Source: Halobacteriales archaeon QS_5_68_33 (lineage in GTDB: Archaea; Halobacteriota; Halobacteria; Halobacteriales; Haloarculaceae). Taken from it: a DNA stretch of 32,426 nt. Below are positions 9,911-24,104 of this stretch, one piece after another. The notes under the pieces were generated by a model. That model did not search any database and was not told the origin of the DNA. It saw only the letters and a program-made list of their open reading frames with translations. The number at the start of each line of letters is the position of its first letter. The first letter of the stretch is position 1. The stretch is from contig PXRS01000002.1 of NCBI GenBank assembly GCA_003023785.1, positions 1 through 32,426 of the forward strand, read 5' to 3'. The position numbers were made by a program, and so were the translations under genes.

Positions 9911-9993
9911 TCATACTGCCGGCTGTAAGTCTGTCAAGAATTTCGCCGCCCGGGGCGGCGAATATCTTCACGAAGTTACAGCCGGCGGTATCA
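9911..9993. repeat. Inverted-repeat element, family B, copy 1
   Basis: An 83-base element with ends TACTGCCGGCTGTAA and TTACAGCCGGCGGTA and flanking TCA at 9911-9913 and 9991-9993. Its centre is a perfect hairpin, TTCGCCGCCC / GGGCGGCGAA. It differs from the copy at 24021-24104 by one inserted base and one substitution. It lies in the divergent gap between the larE-like gene and the phosphoesterase. Immediately to its right, TCAGTTCCGGATTTC (9991-10005) matches the interior of family C and is probably a leftover of such an element. Confidence 0.9.
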
Positions 9994-10084: not shown

Positions 10085-11002
10085 ATGATCGACTTTCGGG
10101 GCGGAGAGGAGACGGAGCTGGACCGGGCGGCACGCGACGGCGTCGACGGGGAGTTGCTCGTCGTCAGCATCAGTGACATCCACGGCTACCTGGAGTCGGC
10201 ACGGAGCGCCCTCCGGACCGTCGGCGACCACGGCGACTACGACCCGGTGGTCGAGACCGACGACGAGGGTCGCCTGCACTGGGCGGGCAACGACTACGTT
10301 CTCGTGTTCAACGGCGACCTGATCGACCGCGGGCCGGACAGCGCCGGAGTGGTGGCCCTCGTCGAGCGTCTGAGCCGCGAGGCGCCCCCGGGTCGGGTCC
10401 GGCTCACGCTGGGCAACCACGAGTGGGGCGTCCTCTTTCCGGCCGTCGTCCGCTGGGACGACTGGTTCTCCGGCCAGCGGACCGACGCGGACCGCCGCCG
10501 GCTCTGTACGGCGGCCGCCAGGGGCGACCTGGTGGCGGCCTACGAGGGGCACAACTTCACCTACGCCCACGCCGGCCAGCCGAGCCGCTACCGGGCACGC
10601 TTTCTCAACGACAAACTCGTCGAGGCGACCGAACAGCTCGCCGACGCCATCGGCACCGACGAGGACGCCGACACGCAACGCCATCTCATCGAGGAGTACC
10701 GCCGCGTGCTGAGCATGGGCCGCCAGGGCGGCCGCGGGTTCGGCGCCGGCATCGTCTGGCTCGATTTCCGGTATCTGCCCGGCGAGTCCCCCCCGCAGGT
10801 CGTCGGCCACACCCGCCAGGAACAGCCCGTCCAGAAGGGCAACGTCGTCAACGAGAACGTCATCCGAACGAACCAGAAGAACGCAGGCGGCGAGGCGGTC
10901 CTCGTCGAGTCGCCCGACGCGCTGGTCTCGCTCGAACGCACCTACGACGGCGGCGTCCACCGCAACGAGTTCGAACTCCCGCGCGAAACGACCGCCGACT
11001 GA
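10085..11002 (+). CDS. Calcineurin-like metallophosphoesterase
   Basis: A 305-residue phosphoesterase of the PPP/Ap4A-hydrolase-like type. The metal-binding motifs appear in order: DIHG at 31-34, GDLIDRG at 77-83, GNHE at 110-113, AHAG at 161-164 and GHT at 241-243. These ligate two metal ions that activate water for hydrolysis of phosphate esters. The Ser/Thr-phosphatase-like spacing (GD.IDRG, GNHE) leaves protein phosphatase, dinucleotide polyphosphatase or a nucleotide phosphatase all possible. It has no signal peptide, so it is probably cytosolic. Its TGA stop (11000-11002) is the first three bases of a family C repeat element. Confidence 0.9.
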   Translation: MIDFRGGEETELDRAARDGVDGELLVVSISDIHGYLESARSALRTVGDHGDYDPVVETDDEGRLHWAGNDYVLVFNGDLIDRGPDSAGVVALVERLSREAPPGRVRLTLGNHEWGVLFPAVVRWDDWFSGQRTDADRRRLCTAAARGDLVAAYEGHNFTYAHAGQPSRYRARFLNDKLVEATEQLADAIGTDEDADTQRHLIEEYRRVLSMGRQGGRGFGAGIVWLDFRYLPGESPPQVVGHTRQEQPVQKGNVVNENVIRTNQKNAGGEAVLVESPDALVSLERTYDGGVHRNEFELPRETTAD

Positions 11003-11082
11003 GGCGGTCGGTTGTGACTCAGTTCCGGATTTCGTCGAACCGGTCGGCGAAATACCGGCAAATCGGTACGACCGACCGTATG
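11000..11082. repeat. Inverted-repeat element, family C, copy 1, filling a convergent gap
   Basis: An 83-base element that starts with the TGA stop of the phosphoesterase and ends one base before the TAA of the histidine kinase, so it fills the whole gap between two convergent genes. Ends are CGGTCGGTTGT and the inverted ACGACCGACCG. The interior CTCAGTTCCGGATTTCGTCG and CCGGTCGGCGAA is shared with the other family C copies. It can fold into a stem with an internal hairpin and could act as a bidirectional transcript end. Confidence 0.85.
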
Positions 11083-12750
11083 TTAGCCCTTCTCACGCGT
11101 CGGCATGGCCGGAACGGTGGCGTCCACGGTCGCGCCCGAGACGAGCAATCGCGTTCCCCCATCGTAATCGTCGTCGAACGAGACGGTCCAGCCGTGGGCA
11201 CGCGCGAACATCCGGGCGTTGGGGAGCGCCACGCCGGTCTCGGCATGGGGGACCTCGCCGCCGTAGTTGAACAGCGTCCCGGGGTCGTCGACGGGCGGCC
11301 GGCGGCCGTCGTCAGCGATCGCGAACCCGTCGGGGCGGAGCGAGACCGTCACCGCGGACCCGCCGTTGTGCGCGGCGAACTGGAAGACGTTGACCAGGAG
11401 TTCGCGAAGGCGGGTCGGGTCGGCCCGGACGGTCCCCTCGCCCTCGATGGTCAGGCGCTGGTCGGGGGCGACTTCCTCCCAGGCGTGCTCGACGGCGGGG
11501 GTGAACGCCACGCCGCGGGTCTCCTCGACGGACTGGCCGTGCTCGGCCAGCGACGAGAGGTCGGCGACCGCCCGTTCCATCCGGTCGGCCGTGCGGGAGG
11601 CCGCCTCGAAGGAATCGCGAGCGCGGCCGACCTCGCCGTCGTCGAGCGCCGTTCCGGCGACCGAAATCCGGCCCCTGACGACCTGGAGCGTGTTGCGTAG
11701 CTCGTGCCGGATGGCGGCCGCCAGCCCCTCGAGTTGCTCGTTCTGGCGCTCGAGTTCGCGGCGCTGGCGCTCGGTCGTGGTCACGTCGGCGAAGACCACG
11801 ACCCGGCCGATGTCCGACTGTCCCAGCGAGAAAACGCTGTCGCTGACGAGGTAGTACCGCGTCTCCCCGTCGCGGGTGCGTTCCAGCACCTCGTCCCCGG
11901 CGAGGGCTGCGACCGCCTCGGGGACCACCCTGTCGAGGAGTTCGCCCTTGGCGCCGGCCAGCGACGGGAACGCCCGGCGAGCGTGCTGGTTGAAATCGCG
12001 GATCCGGTCCTGGTCGTCGAGGAAGACGACGGCGTCGTCGACGTCGCCGGTGACCTGGACCGAGAGAAAGCGGTCCTCGAAGACGAACAGGACGGCGACG
12101 GCGAACGCCGCGACGCCCAGTGACTCGTAGTTGATGTCGATCAGGACGGGCGTGGCGTATCCGACGACGTCCAGGGCGACCGGGAGTGCGGTGAGCGCGG
12201 CCGCGACGACGAGCGGTCGGGTGTCGAAGTCGGCGGCCGCGAACAGTTCCAGGAGCATGAAGAAGCCGACGGCGACCAGCGCGTAGGAGGCGCCGGCGAC
12301 CACCCAGTGGAGGGCGCCGTGATTGATCGACAGGTGGACGAACGGCTCCTGGACGAGTTCGGTACCGAAATAGAACCCGTGGAGGGGGTTCGTGACCTTC
12401 ACCGCGACCACGCCCGAGTATGCCAGGACGCCGGCCGTCCGGACCGTTCCGTCGCGGTGGAAGCTCCGTCCCGTGTAGGCCGAACAGAAGTAGAGCCACG
12501 CGCCGACCGTCGCGAGGCCGACGACGAGACTCACCTCGTAGGCGAGGTACTTCACCGCGGGGCGCTCCACGACGAGAAGCGCGAGCTGGAAGGCCGCCCA
12601 GCCGCCGCTGCTGGCCAGAAGCCCCACGAGTCCCCGCCGCGTGTCCCTGTCTTCGATCCGCCTGGCCCGGGCGAGCGCACCGAAACACCCCAGCGCCGCT
12701 AACCCGAAGGCCAGCACGTAAATATCAAACGGGATAAAATTCACCAACAT
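11083..12750 (-). CDS. Membrane-bound sensor histidine kinase (7TM-PAS-HisKA-ATPase)
   Basis: With the ATG at 12750 the protein has 555 residues. Residues 1-228 form about seven hydrophobic helices, like the 7TM sensor region common in haloarchaeal kinases. A PAS-like domain follows at about 235-328 (VVFLDDQDRIRDFNQHARR ... VVVFADVTTTERQR). The phospho-acceptor His is H349 in AAIRHELRNTLQVV. The ATPase part has an N-box Asn at 454 (LLVNVFQFAAHN) and a G1-like IADDG at 478-482. No HAMP or receiver domain is present and no response regulator gene is adjacent, so it is an orphan kinase. An ATG at 12765 is an alternative start; further upstream the frame passes through a repeat. Confidence 0.9.
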   Translation of the reverse strand: MLVNFIPFDIYVLAFGLAALGCFGALARARRIEDRDTRRGLVGLLASSGGWAAFQLALLVVERPAVKYLAYEVSLVVGLATVGAWLYFCSAYTGRSFHRDGTVRTAGVLAYSGVVAVKVTNPLHGFYFGTELVQEPFVHLSINHGALHWVVAGASYALVAVGFFMLLELFAAADFDTRPLVVAAALTALPVALDVVGYATPVLIDINYESLGVAAFAVAVLFVFEDRFLSVQVTGDVDDAVVFLDDQDRIRDFNQHARRAFPSLAGAKGELLDRVVPEAVAALAGDEVLERTRDGETRYYLVSDSVFSLGQSDIGRVVVFADVTTTERQRRELERQNEQLEGLAAAIRHELRNTLQVVRGRISVAGTALDDGEVGRARDSFEAASRTADRMERAVADLSSLAEHGQSVEETRGVAFTPAVEHAWEEVAPDQRLTIEGEGTVRADPTRLRELLVNVFQFAAHNGGSAVTVSLRPDGFAIADDGRRPPVDDPGTLFNYGGEVPHAETGVALPNARMFARAHGWTVSFDDDYDGGTRLLVSGATVDATVPAMPTREKG

Positions 12751-12907
12751 CGGTCTACAGCCCATATGTGCTGGATCAATATGAGTGCTGCAGACAGTTA
12801 CAGAATATGATACGCACGGCTCGCGGATCGACGCTCCTCCGAAAAGGGAGAGACGGTACGGTCCCGGGCTTCGCTCGCCGGGTCGGAGAAGCAAGACGAG
12901 GACAAAA

Positions 12908-12969
12908 TCAGTTCCGGATTTCGGCGAACCGGTCGGCGAACTACCGGTGAATCGGTACAACCGACCGTC
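12908..12969. repeat. Inverted-repeat element, family C, copy 2, truncated
   Basis: This copy keeps TCAGTTCCGGATTTCGGCG, the CCGGTCGGCGAACTACCGGT interior and the right end GGTACAACCGACCGT. It lacks the left 17 or so bases, including the TGA end. It abuts the family A element that starts at 12970 with no spacer, so the two form a composite. Confidence 0.8.
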
Positions 12970-13084
12970 TCATACTGTCGGACACAAGTAATACCACCGT
13001 TCGATGTCTGTTTCGGTGGTCTTTTCGACCTTCCACCCCCGACAGGCGGAATGCTTGTTCACGAACTTGTGTCCGGCAGTATCA
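12970..13084. repeat. Inverted-repeat element, family A, copy 2
   Basis: A 115-base element with ends TACTGTCGGACACAAGT and ACTTGTGTCCGGCAGTA, flanked by TCA at 12970-12972 and 13082-13084. The right TCA is the reverse complement of the TGA stop of the winged-helix gene. Interior similarity to copy 1 is partial (ACCACCG, CTGTTTCGG), so the copies are older than those of family B. Confidence 0.85.
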
Positions 13085-13330
13085 GTCGTCGCCGTCGATC
13101 ACGGTGTAGAGGCGCTGTCGGGCGTCCTGGGGGTAGACCCGTTCCTCGACGAGGTCGGCGTCGGCGAGGTCGGCCAGGGCCGACCGGACACTCCGCTGTG
13201 AGAGGCGCGTCCGTTCCGCGAGCGCCTTCTGGGTGAGCGCTCCCTCGTAATCGAGGACCGTATAGACGAACTTCGCACTCGGGGTGAGCGATTCCAGTCG
13301 GGTCCCGGGGTCCTGGTAGGCGGTTTCCAT
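13082..13330 (-). CDS. Small winged-helix transcriptional regulator
   Basis: An 82-residue protein from the ATG at 13330; a GTG at 13360 would add ten residues and fits the TATA box better as a leaderless start. Nearly the whole chain is a winged helix: LTPSAKFVYTVLDYEGALTQ, recognition region ALAERTRLSQRSVRSALADL and wing DLVEERVYPQDARQRLYTV. This is the MarR/TrmB-like mini-HTH common in haloarchaea; it has no ligand domain. Its TGA stop is the terminal trinucleotide of a family A repeat. A near-palindrome, AACCGGTATACGGTT at 13394-13408, upstream of a GTATAG box may be its own operator. Confidence 0.85.
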   Translation of the reverse strand: METAYQDPGTRLESLTPSAKFVYTVLDYEGALTQKALAERTRLSQRSVRSALADLADADLVEERVYPQDARQRLYTVIDGDD

Positions 13331-13773: not shown

Positions 13774-13856
13774 TGATACGGTCAGTTGTAACTCAGTTCC
13801 GGATTCCGTCGGATCGGTCGGCGAAATACCGGTCGATCGGTACAACCGACCGCACG
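13774..13856. repeat. Inverted-repeat element, family C, copy 3
   Basis: An 83-base copy beginning TGATACGGTCAGTTGTAAC and ending GGTACAACCGACCGCACGA. It has the same orientation as copy 1. The interior CTCAGTTCCGGATT and GGTCGGCGAAATACCGG is conserved. Outer trinucleotides are TGA and CGA. It lies in a divergent gap, 44 bases before the small membrane protein at 13900, so here it cannot act as a 3' end for a flanking gene of the window. Confidence 0.85.
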
Positions 13857-13899
13857 AAACGGGAAAAGGACTTTCGGGCGTGGACACGAACCCGCGGGT

Positions 13900-22399: not shown

Positions 22400-22483
22400 T
22401 CATACGGTCGGTTGTACCGATGTACCGGTAGTTCGCCGACCGGTTCGACGAAATCCGGAACTGAGTTACAACCGACTGTATCA
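22400..22483. repeat. Inverted-repeat element, family C, copy 4
   Basis: An 84-base copy in the opposite orientation to copies 1 and 3. Ends are TACGGTCGGTTGTA and TACAACCGACTGTA with perfect TCA at 22400-22402 and 22481-22483. The right TCA is the TGA stop of aIF6 on the minus strand. Apart from outer bases it differs from copy 1 at about eight positions. It fills most of the convergent gap between the dehydrogenase and aIF6. Confidence 0.9.
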
Positions 22484-24020: not shown

Positions 24021-24104
24021 TCATACTGCCGGCTGTAAGTCTGTCAAGAATTTCGCCGCCCCGGGGCGGCGAATATCTTCACGAAGTTACAGCCGGCAGT
24101 ATCA
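24021..24104. repeat. Inverted-repeat element, family B, copy 2
   Basis: An 84-base element with ends TACTGCCGGCTGTAA and TTACAGCCGGCAGTA (perfect 15-base inverted repeat) and TCA at 24021-24023 and 24102-24104. The central hairpin is TTCGCCGCCCC / GGGGCGGCGAA. It is almost identical to copy 1, 14 kb away. The right TCA is the TGA stop of hisS. Confidence 0.92.

Follow-up and report, generated by a model that had tools for sequence, protein, structure and literature searches.

A 78-bp palindrome between convergent haloarchaeal genes is very probably a miniature transposon from families concentrated on stop codons

The palindrome that separates a phosphoesterase gene from a histidine kinase gene in the window is, with high probability, a non-autonomous MITE of haloarchaea; judged from sequence comparison, its ends would be recognised in trans by a transposase of the IS630 type (DDE_3), inserting in TNA and duplicating those three bases. 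The element and its relatives occur in high copy number, with sharp ends, a 3-bp TNA duplication and exact empty sites, and they are concentrated on in-frame TGA and TAA stop codons. The window, meaning the whole stretch of 32,426 nucleotides that was analysed, is one contig from the draft genome of a haloarchaeon (G000), which comprises 2.42 Mb in 84 contigs and is 71% complete.

The core of the element, assigned to family C, has 78 bp on the forward strand (11003-11080) and was delimited through an alignment of 68 copies and then of 107 full copies. On its left stands the target triplet TGA (11000-11002, forward strand). It is the in-frame stop of a gene for a calcineurin-like phosphoesterase (10085-11002, forward strand; Metallophos by Pfam), with which the left end of the mobile unit coincides exactly. 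The right triplet, TGT (11081-11083, forward strand), is a decayed duplicate of TGA. Convergent with the phosphoesterase lies a 7TM histidine kinase gene on the reverse strand (HisKA_7TM/HATPase by Pfam; open reading frame limits 11083-12960, likely start at 12750), whose stop reads TTA at 11083-11085 (TAA on the reverse strand). This TTA starts on the final base of the right triplet; the kinase stop is not itself the target triplet. The first-pass annotation had described an element filling the convergent gap exactly from stop to stop. Direct reading of the sequence confirmed that 11000-11082 fully occupies the space between the phosphoesterase TGA and the kinase TTA, and this geometry stands; the limits of the mobile unit itself were refined to the core at 11003-11080 plus its flanking triplets. 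The terminal inverted repeats of family C are TACGGTCGGTTGT, and the left end of the window copy reads GGCGGTCGG. The palindromic structure proposed earlier was recovered as a near-complete, strong hairpin when folds of 11000-11082 were compared with shuffled sequences, with -43.6 kcal/mol on the forward strand (z -4.5, beating all 200 shuffles) and a less clear result of -33.2 kcal/mol on the reverse strand (z -2.2). An Rfam search of the window returned nothing but a tRNA.

Dozens of near-identical copies had been found in a first search of the same genome. Profile searches over 982 kb of its contiguous pieces (the window with L021-L028 and L099-L138) gave 211 matches, distributed as 134 to family C, 45 to family B and 32 to family D, with 107 of the C matches near full length; extrapolated to the whole assembly, this would correspond to about 500 matches. 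The three families are related. Family C is an imperfect palindrome of 78 bp, families B and C have the same length (78-80 bp), and family D measures about 108 bp. All have the motif TAC(G/T)G(C/T)CGG in common, within an end pattern TAC(G/T)G(C/T)CGG...CCG(A/G)C(C/A)GTA, and every family shows an abrupt limit at TA with T-N-A on both flanks. Their terminal inverted repeats are illustrated by the consensus hairpin of family C, in which 14 outer positions are paired.

Identical flanking triplets were found in the same genome for 28/38 copies of family B, 15/25 of D and 57/100 of C, where shuffling gave on average 11.0, 5.5 and 34.5, respectively. The agreement is closer still in G003, a complete genome from another genus of the same family, where 54 of 57 triplet pairs are identical and TGA, TCA, TTA and TAA are all represented. 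Families C, B and D carry a 3-bp TNA target-site duplication, and the copies are therefore miniature transposons. About 12 in 100 C copies have triplets mismatched as G against C (TGA/TCA in 10, TCA/TGA in 2), a number above what simple decay would lead one to expect and a point against the transposon reading.

The ends and the duplication were also fixed independently of these statistics, because nested insertions reveal the exact empty site. In L079, from G003, a B element lies within a C element, and without the B core and a single one of the two TAA copies the sequence reads as the C consensus for G003. A D element was found within a C element, flanked by TGA/TGA, at L070 of G041, and further B-in-C and D-in-C nestings with TCA and TAA duplications exist in the window's own genome. 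The TNA that follows GGTTG in the end of family C is a repeated target of B and D (L079, L070, L099:14337-14441, L134:12933-13037 and L116:2136-2269), and the elements target one another.

Several other members of these families are present in the window. Family C is represented by a partial copy (12906-12969, forward strand) abutted by a D copy, by a copy flanked by TGA/CGA away from any called stop (13774-13857, forward strand) and by a copy on the reverse strand (22400-22483), both of whose triplets are TCA as read on the forward strand; in this last copy the eIF-6 gene has its stop codon in the right TCA (22481-22483). The two B copies, both on the forward strand and flanked by TCA/TCA, lie at 9911-9993, with ends TACTGCCGGCTGTAA, and at 24021-24104, where the histidyl-tRNA synthetase gene has the right TCA as its stop codon. 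Family D has a copy with ends TACTGTCGGACACAAGT at 724-837 and another at 12970-13084, again on the forward strand with TCA/TCA, and in the second the right TCA provides a MarR-like gene with its stop codon. In the interval 12906-13085 the partial C copy and the adjoining D copy have one TCA triplet in common. Counted together with the phosphoesterase, the MarR-like, eIF-6 and histidyl-tRNA synthetase genes bring to four, out of seven full-length window copies, those that stand on stops.

The families extend well beyond this genome. Copies or ends resembling family C were detected in G003, G023, G027, G041, G087, G115 and G126, on a plasmid from Haloarcula and in a MAG, Halobacteriales archaeon QS_9_67_15. 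Family B was found in Haloarcula, Halomicrobium, Natribaculum and Haloplanus, in each case on plasmids. Searches for family D in plasmids and for family B in phages gave no match. A few exact matches to C or D end motifs were seen in viral contigs (L194:3941-3958, L192 and L193). Two short contigs of G041, which belongs to a different family, hold C copies about 85-89% identical to that of the window (L069, L070); these may reflect lateral transfer, or the contigs may be strays in the draft assembly.

The relation to stop codons is general. Among 163 copies in the own-genome sample, 78 have a flanking triplet that is the in-frame stop of a gene (C 52/100, B 15/38, D 11/25), and the offsets of the triplets from gene stops form a single sharp spike at 0; in G003, 17 of 57 copies are at stops, with a spike at zero only. 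Genes of both genomes were predicted with a purpose-written, simple codon-usage caller whose calls are approximate, and RefSeq annotation was used as a check independent of it. On the Halomicrobium plasmid pLC1Hm-01, a triplet falls on a RefSeq-annotated stop in 6 of 14 family B copies (TGA 12938, TAA 70884, TGA 150400, TCA 129982, TCA 166626 and TCA 159337, the last in a copy whose opposite end is truncated), and on plasmid pHH400 of Haloarcula hispanica the gene HAH_RS18605 stops on a triplet of this kind.

When each element was collapsed to a single target triplet, 63 of 683 TGA stops were found to be occupied, or 92 per 1000 (about 9%). The corresponding values for other TSA sites were 28 per 1000 on the 3' side of genes (within 60 bp), 19 on the 5' side (60 bp), 14 in convergent gaps, 13 elsewhere in non-coding DNA and 0.2 within genes. 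The stop preference is owed in part to sequence context, with GAC favoured before occupied TGA stops (20/87 GAC-TGA stops versus 5/96 non-coding GACTGA sites). With a context model that had non-coding sites as its training set, 17.7 stop insertions were predicted against 56 observed, the odds for being a stop after context adjustment were 2.2-2.8, and stops are about 3-fold over-occupied even in comparison with context-matched non-coding sites. Safety of the site by itself seems insufficient to account for the preference, because convergent gaps, where the weakest selection is expected, are no more occupied than other non-coding DNA and because an excess at stops persists after context adjustment, to which hidden constraint and errors of the caller could contribute. 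A tentative proposal, which we would not yet favour over its negation, is that a transposase lineage of the IS630 type recognises gene ends and inserts in stop codons (best where GAC precedes TNA) beyond what sequence and safety predict; its miniature derivatives would thus have come to stand in about one in ten TGA-ended genes and serve as ready-made spacers between abutting convergent genes. Searches of the open-access literature turned up no account of such elements targeting stop codons.

Concerning the source of the mobility, a search for DDE_3 led to a 1039-bp insertion sequence in the same genome (L203:1406-2444, equivalent to G000:C42:4299-5337), with 12-bp ends TACGGTCGTGCG and TCA/TCA flanks, which encodes a 305-aa HTH_32/HTH_33/DDE_3 protein of the IS630 type. 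In G319 (L213) and G091 (L216), related copies share its ends and its TCA/TCA flanks, and many relatives from other genera are broken into two reading frames. The L203 insertion sequence and family C have only TACGGTCG of their ends in common. A complete insertion sequence of 1114 bp in G012 (L221:699-1812) carries long terminal inverted repeats, a homologous transposase of 340 aa and TCA/TCA; its ends TACTATCGGCTGAAAGTTCG are close to family B, and its ends TACTATCGGCTGAAAGTTCGTGAGCAGTC resemble the family B end of G003, TACTGCCGGCTGTAAGTTCGTAAAGA. It is a good candidate for a working transposase of the group. At L206:210-250, the terminal TACTTGTGTCCG of family D is identical to the codons that close a second transposase fragment and encode its four final residues (YLCP), which suggests that the D terminal repeat overlaps the end of a transposase gene and hints at family D as a deletion derivative.

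Searches for an autonomous element with the exact ends of family C found none, and a paired-end scan for a long element across the other fetched loci produced chance pairings only. Other transposases were considered as the source and rejected: the loci of DDE_Tnp_1 have no matching ends, DDE_Tnp_1_2 was absent on search, and no matching intact pair of ends surrounds the Y1 gene. At L168, one insertion sequence of G003 is inserted into a family B copy. By inference, the source of the transposase that would move family C is most likely an IS630-type (DDE_3) element with TNA duplication.

The first-pass annotation had also suggested that the palindrome could act as a two-way terminator or protect both 3' ends, a role that gains no support here, the element being a transposon copy with no T-run and with a stem that mutates no more slowly than its unpaired bases. 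In its full form this alternative makes the element a host-adapted bidirectional terminator or 3'-end stabiliser, kept where convergent messages meet, and we consider it very improbable. The hairpin is strong, and a hairpin stopped about 59% of transcripts in Haloferax (PMC7237163); however, a G+C-rich hairpin with a T-run behind it, the form of an intrinsic terminator, was found on neither strand of 10800-11300. Compensatory (double) changes in the C stem, 25 against 19.9 expected, give no clear covariation, and private mutations are about as frequent in the stem (1.23 per position) as at unpaired positions (1.32). Tandem and divergent gaps often hold copies, as convergent ones do, and the orientation of copies relative to the gene was unbiased in a first sample (16 sense, 21 antisense) and modestly antisense for family C at stops in a larger one (18 versus 37). 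Insertions are rare between co-directional genes at most 10 bp apart (1 of 138 stops), which would suit a terminator, but the same rarity is expected in tight operons because an insertion would by any route harm the downstream gene, for instance its start. Also favourable to a terminator is the presence of an element in 10 of 23 tight convergent pairs (pre-insertion gap of at most 10) against 35 of 154 wider gaps, with a P of 0.04 that is one among many comparisons.

This enrichment would also fit a mobile element co-opted at a later stage, with many insertions neutral and the copies between abutting convergent genes retained as transcript separators. Such a course is unlikely, though less so than an element evolved as a terminator. 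It could draw on four of the TGA/TCA copies of family C (L116, L121, L136 and L028), in which left TGA and right TCA are the exact stops of both convergent genes and the second triplet looks as if it had been remodelled into a stop, yet the numbers are small, and effects of gene overlap and truncation could contribute. Termination or spacing may arise as a by-product. A third alternative, a palindrome of the REP/REPIN type that a Y1 (tyrosine) transposase would mobilise, would agree with the high copy number, the palindromic form, the intergenic position and the presence of one Y1 transposase gene, accompanied by TnpB. It is nevertheless barely credible: that gene lacks the required pair of ends, the copies have 3-bp target duplications, which Y1 transposases are not known to make, and nested insertions with duplicated TAA, TCA and TGA contradict it. 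A REP/REPIN member would be a palindrome of 20-40 nt with a Y1 partner and no duplication; the present element has 78 bp and 3-bp duplications.

Under the miniature-transposon explanation, the hairpin most plausibly represents the inverted ends of the element and not a host terminator. An IS630-type transposase would act in trans on the miniature ends and insert them at TNA. Wherever a stop codon is hit, the stop would be duplicated and the protein and reading frame would remain unchanged; the gene would still end at the same place because TGA and TAA are TNA words. Stop codons would in this manner constitute a safe harbour, the regenerated stop being the probable reason for the persistence of the copies, and the transposase, the local context (GAC before the triplet) or both would favour stops over and above their safety. 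The window copy would have entered the TGA of the phosphoesterase gene; the right duplicate would later have decayed from TGA to TGT, leaving the kinase gene to end on the overlapping TTA. The four TGA/TCA copies that supply the stops of both convergent genes, few as they are, suggest that an insertion may sometimes be followed by remodelling of the right triplet into the stop of the second gene. A transposon whose 3-bp duplication is a stop codon would possess a built-in route into compact genomes with genes left unbroken, and this would explain how several hundred copies fit into the 2.4-Mb assembly, about 82% of which is coding. The idea of a 3'-end regulator also becomes testable, as about one in ten TGA-ended genes carries the same hairpin directly after its stop and the rest can serve as controls. 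For annotation, palindromes that run from stop to stop may be insertions, not evolved terminators.

Among known systems, IS630 elements are characterized by a TA target duplication. The candidate sources described here are alike in carrying DDE_3 with HTH_32/HTH_33 and in their matching end motifs, whereas the duplication is a 3-bp TNA, and TCA/TCA and TGA/TGA contain no TA; the source was not filed as a plain IS630 member because IS630 is usually described with TA duplication. Members of the IS5/PHIS superfamily, such as NuwaII with its C-TNA-G target, resemble the present families in a 3-bp TNA duplication and in a C that often precedes the target (PMC4482050), but the transposase found here is DDE_3, while DDE_Tnp_1 and DDE_Tnp_1_2 offered no match. 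SMR-A and SMR-B of Haloquadratum are similar in their 80-110 bp, in their terminal inverted repeats and in nesting in other elements; they differ in having no target duplication and in ends that match no known transposon (PMC3119063), and the duplications observed here set families C, B and D apart from them. QMITE2 of Coxiella is a MITE located mainly in 3' untranslated regions, with one copy at the end of enhC, whereas its duplications are of 7-11 nt and variable sequence and the parts of the source consulted describe no general targeting of stop codons (PMC5896051).

Several features of a MITE are found in families C, B and D, which are short, contain no transposase gene, are present in many copies and have terminal inverted repeats and a fixed 3-bp duplication. 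In regard to a parent, the insertion sequences L203, L213 and L216 (through TACGGTCG) and L221 have end motifs and the TCA duplication in common with the families, with no exact parent for C. The closest resemblance is to the MITEs of haloarchaea, for example the Haloquadratum families, which are likewise short, non-coding elements with IS-related terminal inverted repeats and target duplications that nest in mobile elements (PMC3119063). In comparison with these, the present families have 78-80 bp (C and B) or about 108 bp (D), an estimated hundreds of copies and a TNA duplication, and about half of their copies lie exactly on stop codons.
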